64,000 nucleotides of DNA, from positions 620,001 through 684,000 of the forward strand of contig CAUJDF010000044.1 in NCBI GenBank assembly GCA_963169045.1. Direction: 5' to 3'. This document shows, piece by piece, positions 2,172 through 48,203 of this stretch. This stretch comes from Myxococcota bacterium. GTDB taxonomy: Bacteria > Myxococcota_A > Bradymonadia > UBA7976 > UBA1532. Position 1 is the first letter of the stretch. Each line of letters starts with the position of its first letter. The translations under genes were made by a program, and so were the position numbers. A model generated the notes under the pieces. It was given only the letters and a program-made list of their open reading frames with translations. It was not told the DNA's origin and searched no databases.

Positions 2172-2287
2172 TCTTCGAGGCCGGCGCTCGCCGGACCCTG
2201 GCAGGTACAACGTCCGGAACCATGTCGGGATCTATGAAGCCCTCCGGTATCGGACGACGGCGGCCCCACGCGGACCGCGCGCGAAGG

Positions 2288-2548
2288 TCACCGCAGCGAA
2301 GAGTCCTTCGCCGTGGCCTTGAGAGAGGGCAGGAAGTCCTTCTTCAGCTTCAGCAGGCGCTCGAATTGCACCTTCTGACGCGCGTCGGTGAAGAGCACCT
2401 GCGGCTTCTTGTACTGGCCGTCGATCAACAGGTCGTCGAAGTTGTAGAACTTCGTCTTGTCGGTGGCGGCGGCGCCACCCGTCTGGGCCGCCGCAACGAG
2501 CGGGAACAGGACCACCGCCGCCACGAGAAGCATCCGCACGCTGCGCAT
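2288..2548 (-). CDS. Small secreted protein of the Glt-like cluster
   Basis: The chosen ATG at 2548 (MRSVRMLLVAAVV) follows a strong GGAGGAAG site and opens an 86-residue protein. A cleavable signal peptide (about residues 1-20, ending AAA-Q) precedes a basic, hydrophilic body with an FYNFDDLLIDGQ segment and a Lys/Leu-rich end. A longer reading from 2641 would add 31 residues without a signal. It sits 89 bp after the TPR lipoprotein gene and is probably in the same transcript. It could be a counterpart of the small periplasmic Glt proteins such as GltF, but I recognise no named domain and make no functional claim. Confidence 0.7.
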   Translation of the reverse strand: MRSVRMLLVAAVVLFPLVAAAQTGGAAATDKTKFYNFDDLLIDGQYKKPQVLFTDARQKVQFERLLKLKKDFLPSLKATAKDSSLR

Positions 2549-2637
2549 CGTCCACTTCCTCCGTTCTCCGGGGGAGAACGTGTACCGCCCCGCCCCCACT
2601 CTCGTTCGTCGAAGATGACAGGCGTCGAACCGGGACG

Positions 2638-4086: not shown

Positions 4087-7000
4087 CACTGAGCCTCCTT
4101 GCCCGCGGGCGCGGCCGCCGGCTTCTCTGCCGGAGTCTTGTCAGCGGGGGCCGCCGCCGCGCTGGCGGGGGCGGGAGCCGGCGCGCCCGCCGCGGGCTGC
4201 GCCTGCGTCGCGGTCGTCGACGCGGGCGCGGCCGGCTTTGGCGCCTCGAGCTTGACCGAGGGATCCTCGACGAAGGTCGTCGAGAACATCGCCGGCACAG
4301 GCCACTCGGTGTTCACCGACGCGTCCTCGAGGATCGGGAAGGAGTCTGGGCTGAGCTTCACGAGCAGCGCGGCCGAGCGACGCGACCACTCGTTATACAC
4401 GTGGTTGTTGTGCGCGAGCTGCAGCGCGCGCCGGCTCGCTTCGATCGCCTTCTCGGCCAGCGGTGCGGCGCGGTCGTCGAGCTCGGCGCGGTAGACGACC
4501 TTCTCGTCCTCGGTGAGCTCCTCGGGGATCGGCAGGTCGAAAAGGCTCTGCGCGAACACGTTGAAGCTCTCGCCGATGCGGTACAGGGCCCCGGCGCTGA
4601 TGTCGTGCGCCTTGAAGTCGAGCACCTCGAAAAAGATCGTGCTCGCCTTCTCGAGCAGCTCGGCCTTCTTCGTCAGGCTCTTGCGCAGCACGCTGTCGGG
4701 GAACGCGACCTTGACGGCCTGGAAGTCGCCGTAGACGTACTCGCCCTCGAGGAAGCGGGCTTCGGCGGCCGCGCGGCGGGCGCGCTTGTCTTCCTGCTCG
4801 GCAGCGGGCAGACGCTTGTACGCCTTGACCGCCAGGTCGAGCTCGCGCGACGCGTCCTTGCGGGCGTCCTTGTCGCTGCGCGCCTGGAACACCTTCGCGC
4901 GGCGCAGATACACCTCGGGGACGAGCTTGCCCTGCGTCTTCGCGTACGTCTTGAGCCAGCCGTCATAGACCTTCAGCGCCTTGCCCCAGTCCTTCTTGGT
5001 CTCCTGGAGCTCAGCGATGCGCAGGTGCACGTCCGAGGTGTCGTCACGGTCCGGAAAGAGCGCGATGTACTTCTCGAAGATCGTGATCGCGGCGTCGGTC
5101 TGCTCGAGCGCCATGCGGATGGCGCCGGCGTTGTACAGCGCGTCGGCGATCTGCGACCGCTCCTCGGCCTCGGCCTTCGCCGCCTCGGGGTCCGCGGGGG
5201 CCGCGTCCCTGCCCTTCTGTCCCCGCTTGCCCTTGCCCGCGTCGAGCTTGATGTTGGCCATCTTCTCGAAGTAGGTGGCCGCCGTCTCGAACGCGGTCTG
5301 GCTCTCGTACAGGGCGCCGAGGACGAAGTGGGCCTCGATGGCCTGCGACGAGCCCGGGTAGCGCTTGATCACGCTCTCGTACAAATCGACGGCTTCGGTC
5401 GTCTTCTCCGCCTTCTCCTGGATGGCTGCGGCGTTGAAGAGCGCGATGCCGGCCTTCTCGTGCTTCGGGTATTCGTTGACGAACCGCAGCATCTCCGCGA
5501 CGGCCTTGTCGAGGAGCTCCGGGTTGTTCTCCTTCTTGCCCCGCTCGGCCAGCTCGGTCGCGTAGTTGTTGATCGAGATCGCGATGACGTTCTCGAGCTG
5601 CTGCTTGTTGAGGACGATGAAGTTCTTCCGCTGGAGCATGTAGCGGCCCCAGCGCTCCATCTGATCCCAGCGACGCAGGCGGTAGTTCGAGTCGAACAGC
5701 GTCGCGGCGGCGTGCCCCGCGAACTTGTGGCTCGGGTGATGCTCCATGATCACCTCGAGCCGCTTGATGCCTTCGCCGTAGTGACCCTTGTTGATGTAGA
5801 TCTCCGCCGCGCGGAACGAGACGAACGGGACTTCCTTGTCCTTCGGGTAGAGCGTGACGTAGTCCTCGCACGCCTTTACGAAGGCCGTCTCGGTCTCGTG
5901 GAGCGGGGCCTCGGGGATCGGCTTGAACTCCTTGTCATCCTTCTTCTCGACGAAGGTGACATCGGGTCCGTCGACCTTGCCCTTGCCCTTCTTCTTGTCG
6001 GACTCGCGCTCCGGCCGTGCAATCAGGCCGGCGTCGGCCATCTTCTCTTCGGCGGCGAGGATGACGGCGTAGGCCGCGTCGAGCGAGTACTTCCCCTTCG
6101 CGTCGCGCGTGTACACGCCCTTGTAGTGGGTGATGGCCTTGTCCCACTCCTTCGTCTGGAAGAAGTAGATCTCGGCCAGGAAGAACTCTTTCTCGTACAG
6201 GTCCTTCGCGTCGGGGAAGGCGGCGATGTACATCTCGTAGTACCCGGCGGCCTTCTTGTAGTACGCGTCAGCCTTCTCCAGGTTCTTGAGCTTCTCGAGC
6301 TCTTGAGCCTTGGTGTGGTACTGACCGATGAGCCAGTCGAGCTGTTCCGTTCGGAACTGGTTCGACCGCGTCATCGCCTCTTCGTCGCCCTTGTTGACCG
6401 TGTACCAGCTCGACTTCGGGTCGAAGACCTGGACGAAGCGGTTGATCACCTCGTCGGCCTTCTCGAGGTTCTCGAGCTTCTTGTAGGCGGCGACGATGTA
6501 GTCGGCGTACTCGGGGACCTTCTTCCCCTCTTTGTTCTGGGAGATCAGGTACTCGTAGACCGCGACCTCGTCGTCGGTCTTGTCCTGCTTGTTGTAGATC
6601 TTCGCGATCTTCTCGAGGTTCTCGGCCGCCAGCTCGTCGCCGCCGACCTTGCGGAAGTAGTCCCGCGCCTCCTTCCAGCCATCGTCGACCTCAGCGTAAG
6701 CCAGGTCGAGGGCGGAGTAGGCCTGCTGGGTCAGGTAGACCTTGCGCTTGTCGGCGCCCTTCTGCAGATCCACCACCTTCTGGAAGGCCTGGATCGACTC
6801 CCGGTACTCCTTCAGGTTGTAGTGGACGTAGCCGAGCTTGTAGAGCGCGTAGGGATACTGGTTGGACTTCTCGTCCTCGAGGACCTTGAGGTAGTTGGTC
6901 TTCGCGGCGAAGAGCAGGTCGTTCTCGAAGTAGTACTCGGCGACGGCCAGGTACGCCTGGGTGACGTACTTGGACTTGGGGTACTCCTTCGTCAGGCGCA

Positions 7001-7571
7001 GCATGTAGCTGGCGCCTTCCTTCTTCTTCTCGGCCTGGGTGAGACCGCGGCCGAGGTAGAACATGACCTCGTCGAGGCGCGCGTAGTTCGGGAACTCCTT
7101 GAGGAGCTTCTTGTACTCCTCGAGCGCCTTCGAGTAGTCGGGCTGCGGCTCCTCCGGCTTGGCCTTGAGCGTGCCGTTCAGGAAGGCCTCGTACTGCTTG
7201 TCGTAGTCCTTGCGCTGGAGGAAGTAGCGGTACTTCGCCTCTTCCCACTCCTTCTCCGCGATGCGGAAGAGGAGGTCCGCCTTGTTCTTGTAGAGCGGGT
7301 TCTTGTCGAGAATCGCCCGCATCTCACGGATCTGGCGCTGGCGCACCTCCGAGAGCTGCTTCTCCTTCTCGGCAACGAACTTCGCCCGCTCGTCGTCCTC
7401 GGCGGCCTGCAAGGCGGCGTCGCCACCCTTGTCTTCGGGCTTGAAGACGCCCTTGGCCGCCTTCTCGCCCGTCTCCAGGGCGTCCGCCTGCTTGCCCTGC
7501 TGGGCGAAGGCGGGCGCTCCGGAGAAGGAGACGGCCAGCGCCACCGTCAAGCATCGGAGGGAGTTCTTCAT
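4086..7571 (-). CDS. Large periplasmic TPR protein, GltD/AgmU-like
   Basis: The ATG at 7571 (MKNSLRCLTVALAVSFS) gives a clean signal peptide ending AFA-Q and a protein of 1161 residues. The ORF extends 20 codons further upstream but that stretch is Arg-rich and signal-less. Nearly the whole length is helical repeats of TPR/TolA-binding style with very high Lys/Glu/Tyr content (YKLGYVHYNLKEYRESIQAF). A Pro/Ala tail covers about the last 60 residues. Size and repeat content match AgmU/GltD (about 1200 residues), a periplasmic scaffold of gliding focal adhesions, and its paralogue NfsD. It starts 17 bp after the GltC-like gene and its stop overlaps the start of the TPR lipoprotein gene. Confidence 0.82.
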   Translation of the reverse strand: MKNSLRCLTVALAVSFSGAPAFAQQGKQADALETGEKAAKGVFKPEDKGGDAALQAAEDDERAKFVAEKEKQLSEVRQRQIREMRAILDKNPLYKNKADLLFRIAEKEWEEAKYRYFLQRKDYDKQYEAFLNGTLKAKPEEPQPDYSKALEEYKKLLKEFPNYARLDEVMFYLGRGLTQAEKKKEGASYMLRLTKEYPKSKYVTQAYLAVAEYYFENDLLFAAKTNYLKVLEDEKSNQYPYALYKLGYVHYNLKEYRESIQAFQKVVDLQKGADKRKVYLTQQAYSALDLAYAEVDDGWKEARDYFRKVGGDELAAENLEKIAKIYNKQDKTDDEVAVYEYLISQNKEGKKVPEYADYIVAAYKKLENLEKADEVINRFVQVFDPKSSWYTVNKGDEEAMTRSNQFRTEQLDWLIGQYHTKAQELEKLKNLEKADAYYKKAAGYYEMYIAAFPDAKDLYEKEFFLAEIYFFQTKEWDKAITHYKGVYTRDAKGKYSLDAAYAVILAAEEKMADAGLIARPERESDKKKGKGKVDGPDVTFVEKKDDKEFKPIPEAPLHETETAFVKACEDYVTLYPKDKEVPFVSFRAAEIYINKGHYGEGIKRLEVIMEHHPSHKFAGHAAATLFDSNYRLRRWDQMERWGRYMLQRKNFIVLNKQQLENVIAISINNYATELAERGKKENNPELLDKAVAEMLRFVNEYPKHEKAGIALFNAAAIQEKAEKTTEAVDLYESVIKRYPGSSQAIEAHFVLGALYESQTAFETAATYFEKMANIKLDAGKGKRGQKGRDAAPADPEAAKAEAEERSQIADALYNAGAIRMALEQTDAAITIFEKYIALFPDRDDTSDVHLRIAELQETKKDWGKALKVYDGWLKTYAKTQGKLVPEVYLRRAKVFQARSDKDARKDASRELDLAVKAYKRLPAAEQEDKRARRAAAEARFLEGEYVYGDFQAVKVAFPDSVLRKSLTKKAELLEKASTIFFEVLDFKAHDISAGALYRIGESFNVFAQSLFDLPIPEELTEDEKVVYRAELDDRAAPLAEKAIEASRRALQLAHNNHVYNEWSRRSAALLVKLSPDSFPILEDASVNTEWPVPAMFSTTFVEDPSVKLEAPKPAAPASTTATQAQPAAGAPAPAPASAAAAPADKTPAEKPAAAPAGKEAQ

Positions 7572-7588
7572 GTGCGGCAACCCGTGGA

Positions 7589-9547
7589 TCACTCGGCGGC
7601 GGCCGAGGCGTCGGCGGGGGGAGCCCCGCACTTGTCGGTGAGCCGGCTGCGATAGCTGTTGATCTCGTCGGCCCAGAACTCACCCTCGAAGGGCCACGTC
7701 TGGTACTTGTCGCCGACGAAGATGGTGGCGGCCTTCTGGGCCTCCGCCGTGTCCTTCAGCTCTGCATTGCCGGCGTCTTCGAGCTCCTTGGCGAGCACGT
7801 TGCCGGCGGCCTCGTCGATCTCGATGCGCACTTCGGACAGCTTGATCTCGAGCTCGGTCAGCTCCTGATCCAGCCCCTGCAGGAGCTGGTTGATCTTGAT
7901 GCCGAGCGCGATCGTGCCTTCCTTGTGGCGGTTCTCGACGGTCCGGAGCAGCTCCTGCGACAGCTTGTCGCCGAAGCGGCCGTGCTCCTTCTTGATGCGC
8001 GCGACCTCGCGGCGATAGGCCGTGACGGTCGTGTACAGGTCGTGGAACTCCTCGTTGGCGAGGACGGCTTTGCGCAGCAGTCCAGGCACCTCGACGCCCT
8101 TGGTCGTCTGTCCGAGCACGAAGGCCCGATACAGCGCCTCGGGGGTCGGATACTCGGCGAGGAACGTCGCCAGCGGCTTCTTCAGCGCCAGGTAGCGACC
8201 CTCGACGCGCTTGATCGACGAGTGCGCGAACTCGAAGTGACAGGTGTTCATGTACACCGCCGCCTCGAGGAGCTGCGTGTCGGGGAGGTAGGAGCTCTCC
8301 CAGTCGGGACCGTCGAGGGTGTGGAAGATGCCGAGCCCGCGCCCCACGTCCCCCTTGAGGAAGTAGGACCAGCCCGCCTCGTGGAGCGCGTTCACGTAGC
8401 TCGTCGAGTCCGAAGGCACCTTTCGGTAGTAGAAGATGGCCACGTCGAACAGGCCGACGGTGTACGAGATGCGTGCCAGCGCCAGGTAGGCGAGGTGCGC
8501 GATGCGCGGCTCGTTCTTGGCGTTGGAGGCGACGACCGCCTCCTGGAAGTTCTTCGCGGCGCCGAGGAGCTTGAGGTTCCGCTCGTCGGAGTCGTCGTCG
8601 CCAGCCTCCTGGACGCCGAGCAGGCCCAGCAGGTACTGGGCCTCGCCGTAGTCGGCACCATCGGCACTGACCGTGCCGAGGTACTTCTTTGCCTCGTCGG
8701 CGCGGTTGTAGTCGAAGAAGAACTTGCCGAGGAAGTAGTTGTAGCTGTCCTGGAACGCCTTCGGCGCGTTGCCCACGAAGTAGTTCGTCAGCGCCTCGAG
8801 CGTGACCGGGTTGTACGCGATCTCGCGCGTGCACTTGCGCAGGCCCTCGAACGCGGGAATGAACACCTCGCTCTCGGAGCCAGCGCCGACGAGCTCGTGG
8901 TAGATCTCCGCAGCGTTGCCATAGAGCCGCAGCGCGAAGAGGCTGTCGGCGAGCCCCAGCTTCGCCTGCAGGCCGCTCGGCTTCTTGGGATCGACGCTGT
9001 CGAGAAACTCGCGAAACAGGCGGGCGGCCTTGTAGTAGTCGCCGTCCTCCTGCGCGTCACGAGCGCCGGCGAGCGCGTCGGCGATGCGACGCTTCTCCTC
9101 CGCGTTCATGCGCTCGCGCTCCTGCTCGGCGGCGCGTCGGGCGGCCTCGCGGATGCGCTCCTCTTCCTCGAGCGCGTTCTTCGCCGACTCCTCCTCGTTG
9201 CGCATGCGCGTGAGATCGTCGACGGGCGCCTTCTCGGGGGCGGGCTCCGGCGCCGGCTCGGGGGCGGGCGCGGCGGTGGCGCCGCTGCCCTTGGCCATCA
9301 TCTGTTCGATGACGGCCTTGGGAACGCCGGCGGCCTCGAGGTTCTTGAGGTCGTCGACCGTGAGGTTGAACGACGCGCCGGTGCTCTGCAGCGTCTGGAC
9401 GATGACCGCCGGGGGCAGCCCCGACTTGTGCATCTGGATGACGTTGTCGACCGAGATCGCGAGGGCGGAGGTCGTGGACAACAGGAGGGCGAGGACCCCC
9501 CCGGCCACACCGCTCGCGAACCGACCGCGGTGCTTCCGTGGTTTCAT
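7589..9547 (-). CDS. Periplasmic TPR/coiled-coil protein, GltC-like
   Basis: A 652-residue protein with an N-terminal signal (about residues 10-30, ALLLSTTSALA). A short helical module at about 31-88 (VDNVIQMHKSGLPPAVIVQTL) is followed by a Pro/Ala/Glu linker and a charged coiled coil at about 120-160 (EEERIREAARRAAEQERERM). The rest is mostly TPR-like helices, ending in a second coiled coil. Length and order resemble GltC of the Myxococcus gliding machine, where it accompanies the GltA/GltB barrels. The gene lies 18 bp behind the barrel gene here, which supports the call. The exact homologue and direct partners are inferred. Confidence 0.75.
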   Translation of the reverse strand: MKPRKHRGRFASGVAGGVLALLLSTTSALAISVDNVIQMHKSGLPPAVIVQTLQSTGASFNLTVDDLKNLEAAGVPKAVIEQMMAKGSGATAAPAPEPAPEPAPEKAPVDDLTRMRNEEESAKNALEEEERIREAARRAAEQERERMNAEEKRRIADALAGARDAQEDGDYYKAARLFREFLDSVDPKKPSGLQAKLGLADSLFALRLYGNAAEIYHELVGAGSESEVFIPAFEGLRKCTREIAYNPVTLEALTNYFVGNAPKAFQDSYNYFLGKFFFDYNRADEAKKYLGTVSADGADYGEAQYLLGLLGVQEAGDDDSDERNLKLLGAAKNFQEAVVASNAKNEPRIAHLAYLALARISYTVGLFDVAIFYYRKVPSDSTSYVNALHEAGWSYFLKGDVGRGLGIFHTLDGPDWESSYLPDTQLLEAAVYMNTCHFEFAHSSIKRVEGRYLALKKPLATFLAEYPTPEALYRAFVLGQTTKGVEVPGLLRKAVLANEEFHDLYTTVTAYRREVARIKKEHGRFGDKLSQELLRTVENRHKEGTIALGIKINQLLQGLDQELTELEIKLSEVRIEIDEAAGNVLAKELEDAGNAELKDTAEAQKAATIFVGDKYQTWPFEGEFWADEINSYRSRLTDKCGAPPADASAAAE

Positions 9548-9565
9548 GCGTCGCCGCTCCTTGGT

Positions 9566-10375
9566 CTACAGCAGGAAGCCGACGCCCAGCGAGAGCTCCA
9601 CGGGCTTGGAGACGCCGCCGCGCGCCTTCTCGAAGAACATGTGCCGATACTCGGTGCGCACGTTGAACGAGTCGGTGAGGAACCACCGAAAGCCGGCGGC
9701 GATGTTCGCCGCGGGCTTGCGCACCTCGTTCTGCTGGAAGTTGTCGCCCGGCGTCCGCTCCGTCTTGTGGACGAGGCCCGCCCCGAGACCGATGTAGGTA
9801 TCGAAGTGGGTCAGCTTCGCGCCGAGCAGGCTGATCTTGCCGTAGATCGGCGACCAGAGCAGGTCAACGTGGTAATAAAACTGAATGATCTCCTCGATGT
9901 CGGCCTCCTTCAGGCCGATCGCGGGATCAGTCTTGAGGAACTCGGTCAGGCCGGTGTCCTGGTTGAGCGCATAGGCGAAGGAGGCCTCGACGTCGAAGGA
10001 CTCCGAGATGTGGTACCCGATGCGGCCGCCGAGCGGGTAGTAGACGATGAAGTCGTCGTTCGGGATCGTCGACCCGAAGAGCGTGAACTCGAGGCGGCCG
10101 TCCTTCTCGAACAGCCGCTTCTGCACGACCTCGATCTCGCGCTGCTGGCCCCAGATCTCGGCCAGGTCTCCCTCGAGCTCCTTCTCGGCCTTCGTCGCGG
10201 TGTCATCGGACACCTCATCGGCCGCTGGCGCCGCCTCCGACGCTCCGCTCGACTCCGACGACGGCGCAGCAGCCTCCGTCCCCCCGCCCTCGGCAGGCGG
10301 GTTGTCCTGCGCGTGGGCGGTCCCCATCGAAACCAGCGCGGCCAGCGCCGCGAACAGGAACCCGTCCTTCTTCAT
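9566..10375 (-). CDS. Outer-membrane beta-barrel protein (GltA/GltB/GltH-like)
   Basis: The start at 10375 (MKKDGFLFAALAALVSMG) is preferred because a GGGGAG site lies 10 bp upstream; a Met seven codons earlier abuts that site too closely. A signal peptide (ends AHA-Q) precedes an acidic, coiled segment (about 25-85: Ser/Ala/Glu-rich, then KAEKELEGDLAEIWGQQ). The rest alternates as amphipathic strands (LEFTLFGS, VYYPLGGRIGYH, VDLLWSPIYGKI, FNVRTEYRHMFF) and ends LSLGVGFLL, a typical barrel terminus with hydrophobic last residues. 'Outer membrane beta-barrel domain' proteins of this kind are the GltA/B/H class. It lies between the VWA lipoprotein (17 bp) and the GltC-like gene (18 bp). Confidence 0.82.
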   Translation of the reverse strand: MKKDGFLFAALAALVSMGTAHAQDNPPAEGGGTEAAAPSSESSGASEAAPAADEVSDDTATKAEKELEGDLAEIWGQQREIEVVQKRLFEKDGRLEFTLFGSTIPNDDFIVYYPLGGRIGYHISESFDVEASFAYALNQDTGLTEFLKTDPAIGLKEADIEEIIQFYYHVDLLWSPIYGKISLLGAKLTHFDTYIGLGAGLVHKTERTPGDNFQQNEVRKPAANIAAGFRWFLTDSFNVRTEYRHMFFEKARGGVSKPVELSLGVGFLL

Positions 10376-10392
10376 GGAGGTCATGCTCCCCG

Positions 10393-11685
10393 TCATTTCT
10401 TGTAGAACCAGAGGCGCGAGTCCCGGGTCTGGGCATTCACGTCGCGGGACAGGGCCATCGGGGCCGAAGCGGTGTTGCCGCCGAGGGTGACGCTGAGCTC
10501 CGACGTCAGGAGGTAGCCTCCGGGCGTGAACGCGCCGGCGCCGAGACCCGTCTGGACGTTGAGCCGCCAGGTGCCGACCACCCGGTTGCGCAGGATGGTG
10601 GGCAGGTCGCCGTTCGCCGTGAACTCCGTGGCATCACGAAGGAAAATGTACTCGCCCCCCGTCCGGCAGGCGAGATCGGCGTACTTCGCGTTGTGACCGC
10701 GAGGCCACGAGAGCGGCGCCACCGCCGCTGAAGGAGGCACCTGCAGGTGGACGACGATCACCGGGATCGGCGCCGGCACGCTCTCGCCATCGACCGTGCG
10801 GCGGTGGTTGGCGAACTTCTCGGTGACGCTCTCGATCGTGACGCCTTCCGGCGAGGTGTCGCCGGTCTCGGTGCCATCGGTGAAGACGACCACCACCGGG
10901 TTGAGGTCGGCGTTGCCGGCGAAGTCGATGATGCGGGTGAGCGCCTGGTCGAGCGCGTGCGCCAGCGGCGTACCGCCCTCGGGCTGATTGATGTCCAGCT
11001 GGTTGAGGGCCTCTTCGGTGACGCTGCGGTTGCGGCTCGGCTCCGCCTGATTGATGTCGGCGAACTCGCGGTTGAACGGCAGCAGCGAAACGTAGTCGCC
11101 CTCGGGCAGCTCGGCGATGAAGTCGCGGAAGAACACGATGCGCTGGTCGCCGAGATCGCTGGCGCGCGTCGTGTCGACGTTGCCCGTGATCGGATCGAGG
11201 CCGATGAGGCTGCCCGACTGATCCATGAGCAGGACGATGAGCCGGTCGTCGTCCTTGCGCTCCGCACCGCCCGACCACAAGAACTTGAGAGCGTCGGGGT
11301 TGAGACCCACGGGGAGACGGACGCGCTCCTGGCCCTCGGTCTCGCCGTCGTTCTCGGCGAGGCCCTGCTTGCCCATGAGCTCGCCGGGGTCGGTGCCCGC
11401 AGGGTTGTCGACGAAGCGGAAATCGCTGTAGGTGAGCAGGTCGCCGACCTTGCCGGACTCGCCGCTGATGCGGTCGTCGGGCAGCAGCGCCGAGTCCTCG
11501 TCGAGCAACATGACCGACATCTCGACGTTGGTCAGGTTGTCGTTCTCGGGCGCCTTGCAGGCGCCGGGCACGAGCACTCGGGAGAAACTCAGCCGCTGCG
11601 AGTCCAGTCCCACCGTCGAGTCGCATCCCGCCAGCAGCAGGACGGCAGCGCCCCAGAGGCTCCGGGCCGGTCTTCGGTCGCGCAT
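10393..11685 (-). CDS. VWA-domain lipoprotein, CglB-like adhesin candidate
   Basis: A 430-residue protein with lipobox LLLAGC (Cys21) and a von Willebrand factor A domain at about 148-345. The metal-ion-dependent adhesion site is complete: DQSGS (D155, S157, S159), Thr239 in GGTPLAHAL and Asp270 in FTDGT. A beta-rich C-terminus follows (about 370-430). CglB of Myxococcus xanthus is a VWA lipoprotein of about 416 residues that is exposed at gliding focal adhesions and works with the GltA/B/H/K barrels. Finding a VWA lipoprotein as first gene of a Glt-like operon supports the same role. It diverges from the HYDIN-like lipoprotein array across 184 bp. The VWA call is firm; CglB equivalence is inferred from size, lipidation and context. 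Confidence 0.83.
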   Translation of the reverse strand: MRDRRPARSLWGAAVLLLAGCDSTVGLDSQRLSFSRVLVPGACKAPENDNLTNVEMSVMLLDEDSALLPDDRISGESGKVGDLLTYSDFRFVDNPAGTDPGELMGKQGLAENDGETEGQERVRLPVGLNPDALKFLWSGGAERKDDDRLIVLLMDQSGSLIGLDPITGNVDTTRASDLGDQRIVFFRDFIAELPEGDYVSLLPFNREFADINQAEPSRNRSVTEEALNQLDINQPEGGTPLAHALDQALTRIIDFAGNADLNPVVVVFTDGTETGDTSPEGVTIESVTEKFANHRRTVDGESVPAPIPVIVVHLQVPPSAAVAPLSWPRGHNAKYADLACRTGGEYIFLRDATEFTANGDLPTILRNRVVGTWRLNVQTGLGAGAFTPGGYLLTSELSVTLGGNTASAPMALSRDVNAQTRDSRLWFYKK

Positions 11686-11869
11686 CGAGAGTACTTCCCC
11701 TCCGGGTCCGGGCGTATTCCGTGAAGGCTGGATTTAAGCGAGGGGGGGCTGCTATACCCGAGTGAAAATTTTTGCACTGCATCGACACGGGGGCCGCCCC
11801 AAGTATGGCGGCGTGGGGTCGAGCGGCCCGTCGAACGCGGTGCCGGTGTCCATCTCAAAGGAGCTTTCG

Positions 11870-13978
11870 ATGTTGAATCTGGGGGGAATGAGGTGGCTCG
11901 CCGGCCTGACCGCCGCCGGCCTCTTCCTCGTCGGTTGCGGTGACGACGGCATCAAGTCGAGCACGACCGCGAGACTGGCCGCCGATCCGAGCGCGTTCGT
12001 GTTTCCCAAGCTCGGACTGGGACAGAACGTCGACCGGACCGTGACGATTCGCAACGAGGGCGAGGGCGACCTCGTCATCAAGAAGATCAAGCCCGACTAC
12101 CAGCTCGACAAGGAGTTCCGCCTCGGCTACCGCAAGGCGGACGATGCCACCATCTACGATGGCATCGGCGCCGAGGGTGAGGACCACTTCGCCGAGCAAG
12201 GCCTCTATCCGCTCGTCGTCCCGGGCGGCGGATCGCTCGACCTGGTCCTCAACTACAAGCCCGCCGACGAGATCGCCGACGGCGGCAAGCTGGTGCTCGA
12301 CACCAACGTCGACGACAACTTCGAGATCGCCATCCGCATCGCCAACGTCGGCGCCGAGATCAACGTCTCGCCGACCACGCTCGACTTCGGCCGCGTGCCC
12401 GCCGGCGAGAGCAAGACGCTCGAGGTGACGGTCACCAATCTCGGCCAGGTGGAGCTCGACGTCACCGGCATCCTGGTCAACGGTTCCCAGGAGTTCCAGC
12501 CGCGCATCGACGGCAAGGATCCGCGCCGCGTGCCCGAAGTGCTCCAGAACCCCGACAAGGAGGGCGCTCAGGGCCTCGGCGCCGGCAAGTCCTTCACGAT
12601 CGAGGTGACCTACTCGCCCGCGGTCGAAGGCCCGGACCGCGCCGAGATGCAGATCGCCAGCAGCGACCCCAACCGTCCCGGGATCAAGGTGAACCTCACC
12701 GCCAACGGCGCGACGCCCTGCCTGAAGGTCGTCCCGGCGGCGGTGGAGTTTCCGTCGAGCCTCGTGAACCGCGTCGACTCGCGACAGTTCACCATCGAGA
12801 GCTGCGGCGGCGAAGCCCTCGAGATCTACGGCATCGACGCCATCGATGGCCCCGACGGCGGCGACGCGTTCAAGGTCGACGAGGAGTCCCTCCCCTCGTT
12901 CCCGGCGGTGCTCCCCGCGGCCGAAGCCGGACAGGCCCCGCCGAGCCGCGCCATCGGGGTCACGTTCGAGCCGCGCGAGCAGCGCATCTACAACGGCGCG
13001 ATCGGGATCATCAGCAACGATCCCACCGGCGAGCCGATGGTCGAGGGCGAGACGACGCGCTATCTCCGCCGCGTCAGCCTGCTGGGTCGTGGCGTGCTCA
13101 ACGCCTGCCCCCAGGCCCGTCCCGTCCAGGACGAGTTCAACGTCCAGCCGCTCGACGTGATCGCCCTCGACGGCGGCGCCTCGATCGACCAAGACGGCCC
13201 GATGAACAAGCCGGTCGAGTATGAGTGGGTCGTGCTCTCGTCGCCCGAAGGCTCGTTGTCGGTGCCGGGCGAGGCCCTCCTGAACCCCGGCGACCCGGCC
13301 CTCGGCGTCCGCGACGACGACAAGAGCACGCCGACCGCGGTGTTCTGGGCCGATCTCGTCGGCACCTATACCCTCGAGCTGCGGGTCCGCGACAACCTCG
13401 GTCTGGGCCCGGATCAGTGCGAGACGGCGGTGGCAACGGTCACCATCGTGGCCAAGCCGGAGCAGGCCATCCACGTGCAGCTGGTGTGGCGGACGCCCAA
13501 CGACCCGGACGTGACCGACACCGAGGGCACCGACCTCGACCTGCACCTCCTGCACCCGAACGCCGAGGGCTGGTTCACGGCGCCGTACGACTGCTACTAC
13601 TACAACCCGACGCCGGACTGGGGTCAGCTCGACAACCCCGACGACGACCCGTCGATCGACATCGACGACATCAACGGCAACGGGCCCGAGAACATCAGCC
13701 TGACGAACCCGGAGAACACGACGACGCTCGGCGCGCCGTACATCGTGGGTGTTCACTACTACCGCAGCGCGGATCGTCGCACCGGCTTCGACTTCGGCCC
13801 GAGTTTTGCCAAGGTGCGCATCTTCATCAACGGCAACCTCTCCTGGGACTTCAGCGCCGATGGCGACCCGGGGGAGAAGCAGATGGAGGCCGAGGACCAC
13901 TTCTGGGACGTGGCCGACATCCAGTGGCCGTCGGGCGAGGTCCGCAAGCGCGACCGGTACTATCAGCAGCGTCCCTGA
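11870..13978 (+). CDS. HYDIN-like (choice-of-anchor D) lipoprotein 1
   Basis: The start at 11870 has an AAAGGAG site 7 bp upstream; the ORF is open 36 codons further but without a signal. The 702-residue protein has lipobox LFLVGC followed by acidic residues. It contains about three immunoglobulin-like ASPM-SPD2-Hydin/choice-of-anchor-D repeats (FPKLGLGQNVDRTVTIRNEG, LDFGRVPAGESKTLEVTVTN). A PKD-like segment follows (YEWVVLSSPEGS...TYTLELRVRDNLG). The C-terminal domain carries conserved acidic motifs (TDLDLHLLHP, DDPSIDIDDINGNGPEN). It is the first of four related genes on the same strand. Such proteins are common on myxobacterial surfaces and are thought to be structural or adhesive; the exact job is unknown. 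The acidic C-terminal motifs could bind calcium. Confidence 0.85.
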   Translation: MLNLGGMRWLAGLTAAGLFLVGCGDDGIKSSTTARLAADPSAFVFPKLGLGQNVDRTVTIRNEGEGDLVIKKIKPDYQLDKEFRLGYRKADDATIYDGIGAEGEDHFAEQGLYPLVVPGGGSLDLVLNYKPADEIADGGKLVLDTNVDDNFEIAIRIANVGAEINVSPTTLDFGRVPAGESKTLEVTVTNLGQVELDVTGILVNGSQEFQPRIDGKDPRRVPEVLQNPDKEGAQGLGAGKSFTIEVTYSPAVEGPDRAEMQIASSDPNRPGIKVNLTANGATPCLKVVPAAVEFPSSLVNRVDSRQFTIESCGGEALEIYGIDAIDGPDGGDAFKVDEESLPSFPAVLPAAEAGQAPPSRAIGVTFEPREQRIYNGAIGIISNDPTGEPMVEGETTRYLRRVSLLGRGVLNACPQARPVQDEFNVQPLDVIALDGGASIDQDGPMNKPVEYEWVVLSSPEGSLSVPGEALLNPGDPALGVRDDDKSTPTAVFWADLVGTYTLELRVRDNLGLGPDQCETAVATVTIVAKPEQAIHVQLVWRTPNDPDVTDTEGTDLDLHLLHPNAEGWFTAPYDCYYYNPTPDWGQLDNPDDDPSIDIDDINGNGPENISLTNPENTTTLGAPYIVGVHYYRSADRRTGFDFGPSFAKVRIFINGNLSWDFSADGDPGEKQMEAEDHFWDVADIQWPSGEVRKRDRYYQQRP

Positions 13979-14002
13979 GAGAGACGTTGCGAGGCCGAGC
14001 CT

Positions 14003-14035
14003 ACGACCCCGTCCGCGATCGCGCGGCGGGGTCGT
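14003..14035 (+). terminator. Strong hairpin between HYDIN-like genes 1 and 2
   Basis: The sequence forms a near-perfect stem: nine pairs (ACGACCCCG with CGGGGTCGT), a single T bulge, five more pairs (CCGCG/CGCGG) and an ATCG loop. It is followed by CCCGTTTCC rather than a clean T run. It lies 24 bp after the stop of gene 1. It could be an attenuating or partial terminator, or an mRNA-stabilising 3' hairpin that sets different expression of the two genes. Confidence 0.6.
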
Positions 14036-14072
14036 CCCGTTTCCTGGTGCCCGCACCGAGCGAGGGAATGTC

Positions 14073-16142
14073 ATGGGGCGTTGGATTCGATGGAGCCTGC
14101 TGGCGGTGGTCCTGGGCGCGACGCCAGCCGGCATCGTCGGTTGCGATGACGGCGTGAACGTCTCGCAGACGCCGGCGCTGCAGTTCGCGCCGCCGGAGTT
14201 CCGCTTCCCGAAGCTTCAGCCGGGGCAGTCGATCGTCCGGGAGGTCATCGTGACGAACGGTGGCTCGGGCGACCTGTTCCTCGGTGATCTCCGCCTCGAG
14301 GATGACTCGACGGCCGGCGAGTTCGAGCTGTTCGTCCGCAGCGACGACGGGCAGCTCGGCAGCGTCCCTTCCGAGTTGACGCTGCCGGGCGACGGTGACC
14401 AGCGCCTGGTGCTCGCCGTCCGCTACAGCCCCACCGATCCCGACGCGACGCCCGACCGCGGCGCAGTGCGCATCCGCACCAACGATGCCAACAGCGAGGA
14501 CGTCTCCATCCCCGTCACCAGCGGCGACATCGGGGCAGAGATCCTCGTGAGCCCGCGCACGCTCGACTTCGACTCCGTCGAGGCCGGGCAGACCGGCGTC
14601 GAGCAGGTGACCATCACCAACCTCGGCCAGGTGGAGCTGGTGATCAGCCGCCTCGACGTGAGCGGCAGCCAGGACTTCGGCGCCCGCTTCCAGGACCGGA
14701 ACGTCACCGGCGATCTGGGCGAGAACCCGCTCGTCGTCCCCCAGGGCGAGTCGATCGTGCTCGACGTGACCTACGCGCCGCCCTCGCTCGGTCCCGATAC
14801 CGCCGAGTTGAAGATCTCGAGCAACGACGCGGCGCGTCCGACGGTCGTCGTCAATCTGCGCGCGAACGGCGCGGCGCCGTGCATTCAGGTCGCGCCGGAG
14901 ACGGTCGACTTCGGCTCCGCGTTGATGGTGCCGGGCACCGACGTCGAGACGCCCAACACACGTCCCCTCGTCATCGAGAGCTGCGGGACGACCCCGCTGC
15001 GCGTGACCGGGCTCGCGATCGAGAACGACGACGGCACCTTCCGGGTCCTCACCGAGCTCACGCCCGACGATGAGACCGGCGCGCTCTTCGAGCTCCCGGC
15101 GCGCGACCCGGAAGCGCCGGCGCTGCCGAGCCGCGACCTGCAGATCGGGTTCTGGCCGGTGGAGACGCGCGCGTACGGCAATCGACTGCTGATCACGAGC
15201 AATGCCAGCGACGAGCCCTTCCCCGTCGACCTGTTCGGACGCGGCGTCGACAACGCCTGCCCCATCCCGGCAGCGCGCGAGACCGATCTGCACGTCCAGC
15301 CCCTCGACATCATCACCCTCGACGGCACGCCCTCGAGCGATCCGGGTGGCGAGGTGCGCAAGTGGCGCTGGACGGTCGTCGATCGTCCCCAGGGCAGCGT
15401 CAGCGTGCCGGTTGAATCGTTCACCGATGCACGACGCCCCGCCGACGGCGGCGAGCCCGACGAAGAGACGACGCCCCAGGCCCTGTTCTTCGTCGACCTG
15501 GCGGGCCAGTACACGATCGAGCTGCAGGTCATCGACAACCTCGGGCAGACGAGCTGCGAGCCCAAGGCGGTCGAGCGCGTGGTGATCGACGCCGTGCCCG
15601 ACAAGGACCTGCACGTCCAGCTCGTCTGGTCGACGCCCGAGGATCCGGACGAGACCGACAGCAGGGGCACCGACGTCGACCTGCACGTGCGGCATCAGAA
15701 CGCCGGAGAGTTCTGGAGCGACAGCACCTGGGACTGTTACTTCCGCAACGTCAACCCCGACTGGGGCGCCCAGGGCGACGTCGTCGACAATCCGAGCCTC
15801 GACATCGACGACACGAACGGCGCGGGGCCGGAGAACGTCAACCTCTCTCGTCCGGAGCCGGGTGTCACGTACGACATCGGCGCCGTCTACTTCCGCTCCG
15901 AGAGCACCTTCGGCGATCCGGAGCGCGATCCGCGCCAGGAGCACCTGAGCCTCGTGACGGTGCGTGTCTATGCCAAGGGCGAGCTCCTCGCCGAGTGGGT
16001 GGACCGCGAGCTCGAGCGCGTGGCCCAGCTCTGGTGGGTGGCCAGCGTCGAATGGTGCGACGACGCCTCCCGCTGCCCGGTGGTGGTTCCGCGCGACGAG
16101 GTCTTCGAGGAAGGCCAGTACCAGACGGCCGCGTCTCCTTGA
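14073..16142 (+). CDS. HYDIN-like (choice-of-anchor D) lipoprotein 2
   Basis: A 689-residue paralogue of the previous protein, starting at the ATG at 14073 behind GAGGGAA. The lipobox is AGIVGC. Order: three choice-of-anchor-D repeats (FPKLQPGQSIVREVIVTNGG; LDFDSVEAGQTGVEQVTITN), a PKD-like segment (WRWTVVDRPQGS), and the same C-terminal domain (TDVDLHVRHQ, NPSLDIDDTNGAGPEN). Identity to gene 1 is visible throughout, so the pair arose by tandem duplication. In both, the segment between PKD and C-terminal domain includes an LHVQLVW or IHVQLVW strand. Predicted lipid-anchored, outer-membrane or surface location. Confidence 0.85.
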   Translation: MGRWIRWSLLAVVLGATPAGIVGCDDGVNVSQTPALQFAPPEFRFPKLQPGQSIVREVIVTNGGSGDLFLGDLRLEDDSTAGEFELFVRSDDGQLGSVPSELTLPGDGDQRLVLAVRYSPTDPDATPDRGAVRIRTNDANSEDVSIPVTSGDIGAEILVSPRTLDFDSVEAGQTGVEQVTITNLGQVELVISRLDVSGSQDFGARFQDRNVTGDLGENPLVVPQGESIVLDVTYAPPSLGPDTAELKISSNDAARPTVVVNLRANGAAPCIQVAPETVDFGSALMVPGTDVETPNTRPLVIESCGTTPLRVTGLAIENDDGTFRVLTELTPDDETGALFELPARDPEAPALPSRDLQIGFWPVETRAYGNRLLITSNASDEPFPVDLFGRGVDNACPIPAARETDLHVQPLDIITLDGTPSSDPGGEVRKWRWTVVDRPQGSVSVPVESFTDARRPADGGEPDEETTPQALFFVDLAGQYTIELQVIDNLGQTSCEPKAVERVVIDAVPDKDLHVQLVWSTPEDPDETDSRGTDVDLHVRHQNAGEFWSDSTWDCYFRNVNPDWGAQGDVVDNPSLDIDDTNGAGPENVNLSRPEPGVTYDIGAVYFRSESTFGDPERDPRQEHLSLVTVRVYAKGELLAEWVDRELERVAQLWWVASVEWCDDASRCPVVVPRDEVFEEGQYQTAASP

Positions 16143-16252
16143 GCCACCGGCGCAGGCCGTCTCTACCGTCTCTCACGACGGATCACATGCTTGTCGGCGC
16201 GGGCCGGCCGTTGTTATCGTTCGGGGCTTCTCCGGCTCCGTGGGGTGGGGTC

Positions 16253-19200
16253 ATGTCCATGAACGTTCGCGTGCTCGGGCTGCTCGCGGCCACCGTCGCC
16301 GCCTTCGCGACGACCGCCTGCAGCGACGATGGCGGCACCGGCGGCATTCGCACCAGCCAGTATCCCGATCTGGAGGCGGCGCCCGATCCCCTCCTCTTCG
16401 AGGTGGTTCCCATCGGGCAGAGCACGCAGCGCATCCTGACGCTGAAGAACGTGGGTGGCGGCGCGCTGCAGGTCACGCGTGTCGATTTCTCGAATTCGCT
16501 GGACACACGCGAGTTCACGAAGTCTCACCCCGAGGTGCCCTTCATCGTCGACGCGGACGAACGCGTCGAGATCCGCGTCGACTACAGCCCGCGTGATCCC
16601 GGCACGGATCGCGGCGAGCTGATCATCGAGAGCAACGATCCGCGGGACGGGACGACGGAGGTCCGCATCCTCTCGGCGCTCTCCCGGAGCGACCTGTTGG
16701 TCGAACCGGTCGAGCTCGCCTTCGGACGCATTCCCACCGGCCAGACGAAGGCCCTCTCGACGCGGATCACCAACCTCGGCACGATCGAGGTCCCCATCAC
16801 CGACGTGAAGCTCGCGGACGACTCGTCGGCGGACTTCACGATCACCGCCGGGGCCGATGCCCGCCCCTCCCTCGGGCAGGGCGACCGTCTCGAGGTCGAA
16901 GTGACGTACACGCCGCGCGGCATCGATCGCGACCTGGGGACGCTCGTCGTCTCCACCGGCGACGCCCAGCGGCCGCAGATTCTGGTGCCGCTCAGCGGCG
17001 AGGAACCCAGCCCCGAGATCGCCACGTCGCCGGAGGCGATCATCTTCGGCGCGATCGACCAGGGCGCGGAGGCCGAACAGCCGTTGGTCATCCTCAACGA
17101 GGGCAGCGCGACGCTCGAGATCACGTCGTTGGCCTTCGGCGCGGCGCCTCCTGGCATCAACGACCAGTTCGCGCTCGAAGACGCGCCGGAGCTGCCGCTG
17201 GCGCTCGAGCCGGGCGACGAGCACGTGTTGCTCGTTCGTTACCATCCGCAGGCCGACGGCATTCACGACACGTCGCTCGTCATGCGCAGCAACGATGTGG
17301 ACGAGCCGATCTACACCGTACCGATTCGCGCGCGTGTTCGGCGTCCCTGCATCCAGGTCGCGCCGGAGTCGATCAACCTCGGACGCGTCGCGCTCGGCGT
17401 CGACAGTCAGCGCGCGCGCCTCCGGGTGCTCAATTGTGGTGAGCTGCCGCTGCGCCTCGAGGACGTGACGCTGGCCGGCGACGACGGGTTCCAGTGGGCC
17501 GCCACCGGCGCGAACCCGATCGGCCTCGAGCTCGCGCCGCTGGACTTCAACGAGATCGAGGTCTGGTACCACAACGCCGACCTCGCCGACGGACAGCCGG
17601 CAGACGCGACGCTCACGGTGCGCAACAACACGCCCGACACGCCCGTAGTCGAGGTGCCGCTGGGTGTGCTCGGGGGTGGCGCGCCGAGCTGCGACCTGCT
17701 GCTGCTGCCGAATCGCGTGGACTTCGGCCTGGTGTCGCGCGGCAGCATCCGCACTCGCAGCCTCGACGTGCTGAACCGCGGCACCGGTCACTGCGACGTG
17801 ACGGCGCAGCGCATCGACGCGCTCATCCCGATCCCCGGCTTCGTGCCGCCCTTCATCATCACGCGTCCCCTCGCCAACCAGCGGGTCGCGCCGGGGCAGC
17901 GCACGCCGATCGAGGTCACGTACCGGCCGGCGCTGTTCGCCGCGGACTCGGCGTTGCTGACCGTCGCGTTCCACGATCCGTTCCGCAACGAGGACCGCCA
18001 GGTCCAGGCCCAGCTCAACGGGGTCTCGGGCGAGAGCAACATCGAGGTCATCCCCGAGCAGCTCGACTTCGGGCAGGTCACGGCGCGCGAGTGCGCCTCC
18101 CAGACGGAGCGTGTCACCGTCTACAACACCGGCATCGTCGACCTCTGCATCAGCGACGTGCAGCTCGAAGGGCCGAACTGCGACGAGTTCTTCATCGTCG
18201 ACCGTCCCGTCGCCAACCAGGACGGCTGCATCCTCGTGACGCGTCGCACGCCCGCCGAGGTGCACCTCACGTACGAGCCGGCGGATCTCGGCGACGACGA
18301 GTGCTTCCTGGTGTTCGAGTCTGACGCGAGCGACCAGCCGCAGCTGCGCGTGCCGCTCTTCGGCGAAGGCATCCGCGACCGGCGCCAGGTCGACGAGTTC
18401 GTACAGTCGAGCGGCCAGACCGTCGACATCCTCTTCGTCGTCGACAACTCCGGCTCGATGGGCGAGGAGCAGGACAACCTCGGCGCGAACTTCGCCCAGT
18501 TCATCGCCGGCGCCCAGCAGTTTCAGAACGACTTCCAGATCGGGATCGTCACCACCGACCTCGACAACCCCAACCAGTCCGGCAAGCTGCAGGGCAACCC
18601 GCGCATCCTCCGCCGGGGGCCGGACGTCGAAGCGCGGTTCCGCGACTCCGTCGACGTGGGCGTCAACGGCGCCGGCTCTGAGTACGGACTCGAGGCGGCG
18701 AAGAAGGCGCTCTCCAACCCGCTCGCCTTCGACACCGGCACGCCCTGCCGCGCCGACAACGAGTGCGTCGCGCCCGACAGCTGCGTCGAGGGCTTCTGTG
18801 GGGGTCACAACCGCGGCTTCGTTCGCGAGGCGGCGGCCCTCGTCCTCGTCTTCCTCAGCGACGAGGAGGACCAGTCGCCCTCGCAGCTGGACTTCTACGT
18901 GGACTTCTTCAAGAACATCAAGGGGTTCCGCAACGAGGCCCAGTTCAAGGCGAACGTGATCGTGGGCGCGCGGAACGGCCAGGCGGAGGCGTGCGAGAGC
19001 CCGAATGGCGTCGCCGATGCAGGCCGGCGCTACGTCGAGGTCGCACAGCGTACCAACGGCGCGGTCTACAGCATCTGCGACGCCAACTTCGGCGCCAGCC
19101 TGCGCGAAATCGGCCAGTCGGCCTTCGGCCTGCCGGTGCAGTTCTTCCTGACGCGTCCGGCCATCGGCGCGACGGTTCGCGTCTCCGTCGACGGCCAGCC

Positions 19201-19324
19201 GGTCAACGACGGCTGGGCGTTCGATCAGGACAGCAACTCCGTGATATTCGAGCAGGACCGGGTGCCGCGCGCCGGCAGCCGCATCCGCGTCGAGTACGAG
19301 GCGCAGTGCTTCCCACGCCACTGA
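16253..19324 (+). CDS. HYDIN-like lipoprotein 3 with VWA domain
   Basis: A 1023-residue protein starting at the ATG at 16253 behind GGGGTGGGG; a second ATG follows two codons later. The lipobox is FATTAC. About six choice-of-anchor-D repeats fill residues 30-715 (LFEVVPIGQSTQRILTLKNV, LAFGRIPTGQTKALSTRITN, LDFGQVTARECASQTERVTV). A von Willebrand A domain starts near residue 724 with the MIDAS motif DNSGS, and a Cys-rich insert (CRADNECVAPDSCVEGFC) sits within it. The end is a short beta domain (VRVSVDGQPVNDGWAF) and a final Cys. Compared with genes 1 and 2, the PKD and acidic C-terminal domain are replaced by VWA. A metal-dependent surface binding role is the reasonable inference. Confidence 0.87.
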   Translation: MSMNVRVLGLLAATVAAFATTACSDDGGTGGIRTSQYPDLEAAPDPLLFEVVPIGQSTQRILTLKNVGGGALQVTRVDFSNSLDTREFTKSHPEVPFIVDADERVEIRVDYSPRDPGTDRGELIIESNDPRDGTTEVRILSALSRSDLLVEPVELAFGRIPTGQTKALSTRITNLGTIEVPITDVKLADDSSADFTITAGADARPSLGQGDRLEVEVTYTPRGIDRDLGTLVVSTGDAQRPQILVPLSGEEPSPEIATSPEAIIFGAIDQGAEAEQPLVILNEGSATLEITSLAFGAAPPGINDQFALEDAPELPLALEPGDEHVLLVRYHPQADGIHDTSLVMRSNDVDEPIYTVPIRARVRRPCIQVAPESINLGRVALGVDSQRARLRVLNCGELPLRLEDVTLAGDDGFQWAATGANPIGLELAPLDFNEIEVWYHNADLADGQPADATLTVRNNTPDTPVVEVPLGVLGGGAPSCDLLLLPNRVDFGLVSRGSIRTRSLDVLNRGTGHCDVTAQRIDALIPIPGFVPPFIITRPLANQRVAPGQRTPIEVTYRPALFAADSALLTVAFHDPFRNEDRQVQAQLNGVSGESNIEVIPEQLDFGQVTARECASQTERVTVYNTGIVDLCISDVQLEGPNCDEFFIVDRPVANQDGCILVTRRTPAEVHLTYEPADLGDDECFLVFESDASDQPQLRVPLFGEGIRDRRQVDEFVQSSGQTVDILFVVDNSGSMGEEQDNLGANFAQFIAGAQQFQNDFQIGIVTTDLDNPNQSGKLQGNPRILRRGPDVEARFRDSVDVGVNGAGSEYGLEAAKKALSNPLAFDTGTPCRADNECVAPDSCVEGFCGGHNRGFVREAAALVLVFLSDEEDQSPSQLDFYVDFFKNIKGFRNEAQFKANVIVGARNGQAEACESPNGVADAGRRYVEVAQRTNGAVYSICDANFGASLREIGQSAFGLPVQFFLTRPAIGATVRVSVDGQPVNDGWAFDQDSNSVIFEQDRVPRAGSRIRVEYEAQCFPRH

Positions 19325-20844
19325 TGAGGGTGCCCGTGTCGAGCCGAAATCTGCTCCTGGGTCTGTTCACGCTCGTCGCCGCCACCGGTTGCGGCGAAGA
19401 GATCGTCGCGCGCGAGTCGAACGAGATCTTCCTCGACCCGCCGTCGTCGCTGACCTTCGCGCGCGTGCCCGTCGGCCAGACGGACCAGCGCATCATCAAG
19501 ATCTCGCAAGGCGGCGAGACGGACCTCGTGGTCTCCGACATCCGGATCGCGGGCTTCGAGCAGTGTGACTTCAAGAAGAACCCGCAGGCGGACCAGGACC
19601 CCGCGTGTGAGTTCTACATCTCCGAGTCGCCCATGCCCTCGTGGGATGGCAACGAGTTCGAAGAGCTCGTGATGACGAAGGGCACCTTCCGCCAGGTCGT
19701 CGTCGCCTACCGGCCCACGATGCTCACGCCGCCGCCGCCGACGCAGCTCATCGTGAACAGCAACGTCCGCGACAAGGAAGAGCTGACGATCGACCTCTCG
19801 GTGCTCACGGCGCAGCCCCGCATCGCGACGACCGACGGCGAGACGAGCGTCTCGTTCGCGGGCACGATGGGCTCGCAGAACAAGACGATCGGCATCCGCA
19901 ACGTCGGTACGGGCACGCTCGTCGTCACTGACGTCCAGCTGCGGCCGGGGTCGGCGCAGTTCCGCGACGACGAGTTCCGCGTCGAGCCGCTGTCCGGGCT
20001 GCCGTGGAACGTCGACGAGAACGGCGTGAACGAGGTCCGGATCACCTACACGCCGCTCGACGAGCACGACGACCGGGCGACGCTCGTCTTCTTGAGCAAC
20101 GACGCCCAGGCGCCCGAGTTCGCGGTGACGCTCACTTCGGTGCCCGTCACGAGCCAGCTCGTGATCGCGCCGAACCCGGTGGTCTTCGGAGAGACCAACG
20201 TCAACGAGACGAAGCGGGTCGCGGTGAGCTTCACCAACGTCGGGCTCCGCAACCTCAACGTCCTCGGCCTGACCATCGAGCAGGGCGGCGCCACCGAGGA
20301 CTACAAGCTCGACAATGACCAGCCCCGGAGCTTCCAGCTCCGTGCCGGCACCAGCAAGGACGTCGACGTCATCTACAAGCCGCTGAGCGCCGAGGGCAGC
20401 GATGCGACGCTCGTGGTGCGCACCGACGCCGACAACGTCGCGCAGGGCGAGACGGGCGAGCTGCGCGTGCCACTCCGGCGCAGCGTGACCGGTCTCGGTC
20501 CCCTGCTCGGCATCGATCCGCCACGGGTCGACCTGAGCGACGTGGCCCCCGGGGCGTCGGAGACGGTCGAGCTGACGTTGAGCAACGAGGGTGACGGGCC
20601 GCTGAACGTGACGGCGATCCGCTTCACCGGCGAGCAGGATGCGCCCGAGCCGGTGAGCGATCCCGAGTTCACGGTGTCCGGCGGCGGCGAGCCGACCGTG
20701 ATCGCGCCCGGAGAGGCGCATACCGTCGAGGTGACTTTCAGCCGCGGCGCCGACGACCGCAACGCCCACCTCGGGACGCTGGTGGTCGAGAGCGACGCCC
20801 CCACGAGCCCCGATCTGGTCCGGTTCATCGCCGAGGCCCTCTGA
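19324..20844 (+). CDS. HYDIN-like (choice-of-anchor D) lipoprotein 4
   Basis: The ATG overlaps the stop of gene 3 (TGATG), so the two are translationally coupled. The 506-residue protein has lipobox VAATGC and four to five choice-of-anchor-D repeats with nothing else recognisable (LTFARVPVGQTDQRIIKISQ, VVFGETNVNETKRVAVSFTN, VDLSDVAPGASETVELTLSN). It lacks the PKD, acidic C-terminal and VWA parts of its neighbours. Coupling to the VWA-bearing gene suggests the two products act together, perhaps as a stalk or spacer protein beside the VWA-bearing one. Confidence 0.85.
   Translation: MRVPVSSRNLLLGLFTLVAATGCGEEIVARESNEIFLDPPSSLTFARVPVGQTDQRIIKISQGGETDLVVSDIRIAGFEQCDFKKNPQADQDPACEFYISESPMPSWDGNEFEELVMTKGTFRQVVVAYRPTMLTPPPPTQLIVNSNVRDKEELTIDLSVLTAQPRIATTDGETSVSFAGTMGSQNKTIGIRNVGTGTLVVTDVQLRPGSAQFRDDEFRVEPLSGLPWNVDENGVNEVRITYTPLDEHDDRATLVFLSNDAQAPEFAVTLTSVPVTSQLVIAPNPVVFGETNVNETKRVAVSFTNVGLRNLNVLGLTIEQGGATEDYKLDNDQPRSFQLRAGTSKDVDVIYKPLSAEGSDATLVVRTDADNVAQGETGELRVPLRRSVTGLGPLLGIDPPRVDLSDVAPGASETVELTLSNEGDGPLNVTAIRFTGEQDAPEPVSDPEFTVSGGGEPTVIAPGEAHTVEVTFSRGADDRNAHLGTLVVESDAPTSPDLVRFIAEAL

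Positions 20845-47211: not shown

Positions 47212-48203
<992 letters not shown>

Follow-up and report, generated by a model that had tools for sequence, protein, structure and literature searches.

What keeps together two gene blocks that run in opposite directions from one short gap, when one encodes relatives of the Glt gliding machinery and the other an array of lipoproteins? The question is raised by a 64,000-nucleotide stretch of a Myxococcota genome (hereafter "the window"; positions 620001-684000 of contig C44 in the 9.0 Mb, 109-contig assembly G000, GCA_963169045.1). Here, the left block (positions 362-11685, minus strand) is an operon of seven genes, transcribed in the order L1, barrel, GltC-like, large tetratricopeptide repeat (TPR) protein, GltE-like, s6 and GltJ-like, while the right block (11870-20844, plus strand) encodes four lipoprotein-like HYDIN/ASH/choice-of-anchor-D proteins, R1-R4. 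A preliminary description of this DNA had the blocks diverging from a single 184-bp region, as they do: the gap runs from 11686 to 11869, exactly 184 bp, with R1 starting at 11870. It further proposed that the two blocks form a single adhesive apparatus, and suggested a search of gene neighbourhoods for evidence that they are unlinked in related genomes. In that comparison, linkage of the blocks was found in 14 of the order's 16 genomes and, beyond the class, in six further families.

Conserved linkage of the two blocks

Within the order, the divergent L1-R1 pair is found in both families; it is missing from G004 and G011, whose completeness is 77% and 81%, respectively. Six genomes, that of the window and G005, G006, G007, G013 and G014, have an unbroken series of genes from GltJ to R4; G010 is without R3 and R4, and G009 is without a detectable R4. 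Flanking genes were used as a control. To the left, dapF beside GltJ is conserved even in the second family of the order, a sign of generally high local synteny, while to the right R5-R9 are conserved in the first family only. Because dapF is also conserved there, synteny within the order alone is weak evidence, and linkage inside the order was rejected as a proof by itself.

We therefore rely on loci outside the order, which were collected as stretches of about 20 kb around matches to GltC and R1 profiles and then annotated. GltC relatives that carry the additional N-terminal domain were recovered by profile search from many of the phylum's families, and a gene series of VWA, barrel (one or two), GltC, large TPR, GltE and s6 recurs across the phylum. 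Genes of the R1/R2 type lie divergently beside the VWA gene in 15 sampled genomes from families f12, f35, f37, f38, f41 and f44, all outside the class, with R3-like HYDIN-VWA genes coming next in f35, f37 and f44. In 12 f12-like loci, R-type genes are also found downstream of the operon, after s6. No counterpart of dapF, the sigma-54 activator gene or R5-R8 was found in the linked loci outside the order, and R9 gave one weak 51-bit match. Since the flanking genes differ outside the order, it is the block that is conserved and not the neighbourhood. The linkage of the two blocks is conserved, and their pairing is more than chance. One f12-type myxococcotal Glt locus (L250) was found on a contig titled Klebsiella pneumoniae (metagenome-assembled genome MaH-04nov19-278), a title that looks wrong.

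Phylogenetic trees of GltC and of the R proteins were built from quick searches, and some of their forks are open. In the GltC tree, the window-type clade stands apart from the clade that contains the canonical-like GltC of the same genome together with a Bdellovibrio sp. copy, and four changes between the linked and unlinked states are needed. In the R tree, R genes that are linked in other families group as a single clade, and the order's genes have the unlinked f3-f5 genes as their sister group. This pattern fits vertical descent in which linkage was lost in some lineages; the alternative would be that linkage was gained.

A locus-specific element in the intergenic region

The 184-bp gap of the window is the shortest of the 14 divergent intergenic regions aligned (the others span 329-630 bp), and its shortness may come from a real deletion or from an assembly effect. 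These regions are otherwise barely alignable, apart from an 18-bp imperfect palindrome, AGTGAAAATTTTTGCACT (11761-11778, plus strand), with AGTGAAAAWWNTTGCACY present in 13 of them. In exact-match scans, the 18-mer had a single match in each of 13 genomes of the order, in every case at the L1-R1 locus and in constant orientation relative to R1; the 44 remaining genomes of the class had none, and neither did the loci examined outside the order. With one mismatch allowed, 12 scattered extra matches were found, as against 4 for a reversed control pattern. This locus-specific element is best read as a putative operator, or part of a promoter, common to both blocks. Because both blocks share it, their co-regulation is likely.

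Most relatives in the first family carry a minus-strand element of the type TTGACA-N17-TAGCAA before L1, and several carry a plus-strand one; the shorter gap of the window has neither, and sigma-70 and terminator scans of it found nothing. Two further explanations of the 18-mer were discarded. A leader-peptide start (GTG AAA AAA ..., or MKK...) was set aside as the downstream frames are unconserved, with G013 reaching a stop after 7 codons, and a sigma-54 promoter was rejected by eye, there being no GG-N10-GC.

Proteins of the left block

The preliminary description took the first gene on the left for a VWA lipoprotein, a reading that our analysis bears out. L1 (10393-11685) has the lipobox LLLAGC and matches Pfam VWA_2 with an E value of 4e-6. 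An alignment of 13 orthologues shows a mature N-terminus of CDSTVGLD or a near variant, and invariant residues D155, S157, S159, T239 and D270, which make up the metal ion-dependent adhesion site (MIDAS) pattern DxSxS, T, D of the VWA fold; cysteines 43 and 340 are also invariant. The AlphaFold model (predicted local distance difference test score, pLDDT, 83) has the VWA domain (residues ~146-370) inserted between two beta-rich parts. VIA-align matched this domain to VWA folds with Z scores of 17-19 across ~180 residues, including TFIIH-subunit chains, integrin I domains (Z 17-18) and the mussel byssus protein PTMP1, and the BatB fold was likewise matched. L1 homologues are found in 15 of the 16 genomes of the order. 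L1-like matches outside the order are weak (24-93 bits), and were accepted because of their position in the operon, their lipobox and an N-terminal CDSTA/CDTVA motif, which recurs across the phylum. In other Glt operons, including that of a Bdellovibrio sp. metagenome-assembled genome, VWA proteins of the Bdellovibrio MIDAS-adhesin subtype lie directly upstream of the barrel-GltC genes (L297:6700-8736, L299:6939-8975 and L292:6076-7749).

L1 is followed by a predicted outer-membrane beta-barrel of the OMP_myx_plus family (9566-10396), which resembles GltA/GltB and scores 115 bits against TIGR04565, above the cut-off of 60. Next comes a GltC-like periplasmic TPR protein (7589-9547) with an extra N-terminal DNVIQMHKSGLP domain, which falls in its own clade and matches NCBIfam gliding_GltC at E 2e-51 and 176 bits, below the equivalog cut-off of 450. 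The large secreted TPR protein (4086-7571), co-conserved with its neighbours, occupies a GltD/GltI-like position and matches TPR families as well as tol_pal_ybgF (107 bits). The GltE-like TPR lipoprotein (2638-4086) scores 58 bits against gliding_GltE (E 1e-15; cut-off 225). A 117-codon open reading frame at 2288-2641 is a real gene, s6, whose orthologues reach 92% identity across its conserved part; judged from these orthologues, its start is probably at 2548, so that the gene would span 2288-2548. It encodes a small secreted protein (KTKFYNFDDLLIDGQYKKP) of no known family; its conservation is among the highest in the block, and across the phylum the majority of Glt-like loci have it after GltE. 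The last gene, conserved in the order, encodes the GltJ-like protein (362-2089), with a Zn-ribbon (MJ0042; Pfam Zn_ribbon_4), a GYF_2 domain, a transmembrane segment and a TonB-like C-terminal tail of the AgmX/PglI type; it matches gliding_GltJ at E 6e-56 and 191 bits, under the cut-off of 450. The clustering of GltC-, GltE-, TPR-, barrel- and TonB-tail proteins marks the operon as one of the Glt/Nfs-type superfamily.

Proteins of the right block

R1 (11870-13978) and R2 (14073-16142) are lipoproteins alike in architecture, each with three immunoglobulin-like (Ig-like) domains of the HYDIN/ASH type, a PKD domain and a C-terminal beta domain. Judged from the R tree, R2 is a paralogue of R1 and the pair is a duplication within the order. 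The AlphaFold model of R1 (pLDDT 87; predicted template modelling score 0.53) strings Ig-like domains and one PKD-like domain into a chain. The C-terminal beta domain (residues 534-700) comes after this chain and is not covered by the VIA-align matches listed; the best matches of the model are ciliary central-pair (HYDIN/CFAP-type) and CEP192 chains. Relatives of R1/R2 were recovered by profile search in 180 of 284 genomes. In one single-contig f3 genome (L302, G017:C1), four tandem genes for R-type HYDIN-PKD lipoproteins are found away from any Glt gene.

R3 (16253-19324) is the HYDIN-VWA lipoprotein that had been proposed for the third gene on the right: HYDIN repeats, matched to HYDIN chains in the PDB, precede a C-terminal VWA domain with the motif DNSGSM. 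R4 (19324-20844), conserved in the order, is a further HYDIN-repeat lipoprotein. Elsewhere in the window, oligopeptide-type ATP-binding cassette transporter genes were noted at 47208-53951 (a family 5 solute-binding protein, a permease and a likely ATPase), and an Rfam scan found no match in the window.

Other Glt-like clusters and motor genes in the genome

The genome holds three further Glt-like clusters, at C44:718000-737900 (L091), on C69 (L092) and on C3 (L093). The first is closest to canonical Glt, with GltC at 414-415 bits (just under 450), GltG at 399 and GltE at 150; its canonical-like GltC gene lies at C44:728k, 98 kb from the window operon, together with GltE and GltG. Seven ExbB-type matches were found in the genome, one of which, on C79, is followed by an ExbD/TolR-like gene.

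A possible envelope machine

Since the two blocks have been kept together across deeply diverged bacteria and share a DNA element unique to the locus, they probably belong to one envelope machine. In our reading, which we give an even chance of being right, the locus encodes a trans-envelope complex of the Glt/Nfs type, paralogous to gliding Glt, along with outer-membrane lipoproteins of its own: the small VWA/MIDAS lipoprotein L1, the large R3 with its VWA on a HYDIN stalk, and R1, R2 and R4 as Ig-like stalks. All would be under joint regulation. Both blocks would be read from the one divergent region, with a single regulator binding the 18-bp palindrome. The GltJ-like protein would span the inner membrane and receive force, or a signal to switch, from the cytoplasmic side, which the periplasmic GltC-, GltD- and GltE-like TPR proteins would pass on to the barrel. 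At the surface, the barrel would in turn retain L1 and the R lipoproteins, whose MIDAS domains may bind a ligand there under load, be it a prey cell, the substratum or the cell's own polymer. A motor would be provided in trans, in the way that Nfs relies on Agl. While the gene content, the conserved linkage, the separate GltC clade and the shared element are shown by our data, we infer regulator-driven co-regulation, a physical complex, surface exposure, force coupling and adhesion. To judge from the domains, adhesion is the most likely role, as suggested by the MIDAS-bearing VWA and Ig-like stalks and by their likeness to CglB and CglD. Prey contact is a reasonable guess at the ligand, because cultured members of a sister order in the class, the Bradymonadales, glide and prey in a contact-dependent manner (PMC7188933).

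Several observations weigh against this reading. In f3, f4, f5, f7 and f16, 19 loci that include 8.5 kb or more of upstream sequence have no R gene next to the operon, and R-type lipoproteins are also found away from Glt genes, as is the case in f3, f4 and f5 where examined. Lujinxingia likewise carries the operon with no R genes beside it. The absence of linkage in these five families implies that the modules are separable. No full-length GltG was found among the block proteins, the GltJ-like protein alone giving a weak match to its tail, and the window contains no ExbB-type motor gene, the nearest being at C44:770924; GltG and an AglRQS motor are thus not found together in this cluster. Several L1-like proteins of f3 and f5 are without the MIDAS DxSxS. 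Finally, Asp is invariant at position +2 of L1. In E. coli, Asp at this position of a lipoprotein is an inner-membrane retention signal, so the placement of L1 on the outer-membrane surface is not assured. The idea of a single adhesive apparatus hence survives in part: linkage and the locus-specific DNA element argue for one co-regulated system, but the linkage is not universal.

The same gaps in linkage, together with the conservation of dapF on the left within the order, would be expected if the blocks were two systems without a common complex, kept adjacent by shared regulation or slow rearrangement. We consider this improbable given that the same divergent arrangement recurs outside the class without the flanking genes, and that f12 has R genes downstream as well. 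If instead the products do work together, the complex might move or anchor a surface polysaccharide or protein coat, with the Ig-like and VWA lipoproteins binding the polymer rather than prey or substratum. Nfs, itself a Glt paralogue, uses the Agl motor to transport the polymer of the spore coat (PMC3858216), and the Ig chain of R1 also resembles S-layer domains (Z ~8, within the common range); no polysaccharide genes were seen among the block genes, however, and the contact-dependent gliding predation of cultured Bradymonadales (PMC7188933) fits adhesion better, which makes polymer handling unlikely in our judgement.

The lipoproteins could also be cargo, in which case the barrel and the Glt-like periplasmic proteins would carry L1 and R1-R4 across the outer membrane as clients that bear no force. 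While the first gene of the operon does encode a lipoprotein next to the barrel, and multiple lipoprotein families flank the operon on both sides, homology to Glt/Nfs points to force transduction, and the cytoplasmic Zn-ribbon and GYF domains of the GltJ-like protein suggest switching, not export; we regard such surface display as decidedly unlikely.

Going beyond the force-coupled paralogue favoured here, we tentatively raise the possibility, which we think somewhat doubtful, that the locus represents a third kind of machine in the Glt family, one of long standing in the phylum and separate from both the gliding (Glt) and the spore (Nfs) systems. Such a machine would be force-coupled, would carry two MIDAS lipoproteins, one of them on a HYDIN-like Ig stalk, would be switched as a unit via a locus-specific operator, and would possibly grip prey. 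One Glt-like clade is associated here with particular VWA and HYDIN lipoproteins as well as with a single cis-element, which provides a concrete list of partners that can be tested. If the locus does encode one machine, VWA surface adhesins would be ancestral to Glt-type machines and not a late addition for gliding.

Comparison with known systems

R1-R4 share Ig-like domains with HYDIN/ASH proteins, but they are bacterial lipoproteins, not ciliary proteins, and no functional relation is implied. The VWA subtype of R3, and of the VWA proteins upstream of the Bdellovibrio sp. Glt operon, is that of the Bdellovibrio MIDAS-family adhesin Bd0875, which is required for prey invasion (PMC11003981), although the match is confined to the VWA segment and scores 39-51 bits, where the cut-off is 700. 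In Myxococcus xanthus, the VWA lipoproteins CglB and CglD work with Glt (PMC4488436, PMC13104615), and the VWA adhesin CglB is retained by it (PMC13104615). The C-terminal VWA domain of R3 aligns to residues 630-910 of CglD, whereas its N-terminus consists of HYDIN repeats, and the match to the NCBIfam CglD model is partial (E 2.5e-12; 45 bits against an equivalog cut-off of 400). NF033763, our guess at a CglB model, proved to be TraB.

The locus shares with the Glt system of M. xanthus (GltA-K and AglRQS) homologues of GltC, GltE, GltJ and the barrel, and the trans-envelope layout of TPR, TonB-like and barrel proteins. Unlike Glt, it lacks GltG and a motor and encodes its own VWA and HYDIN lipoproteins. 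Because GltC, GltE and GltJ score below the equivalog cut-offs and GltC falls in a separate clade, we do not claim membership of gliding Glt for the locus. Copies of the Glt core outside motile myxobacteria were described by Luciano et al. 2011 as a complex of unknown function (PMC3169522). Like the Nfs sporulation complex (NfsA-H), the window locus is a motor-less Glt paralogue in one cluster, for which a motor would be borrowed in trans, as it is for Nfs (PMC3858216). While Nfs is without GltI/J/K paralogues (PMC3858216), the window locus has a GltJ-like gene.

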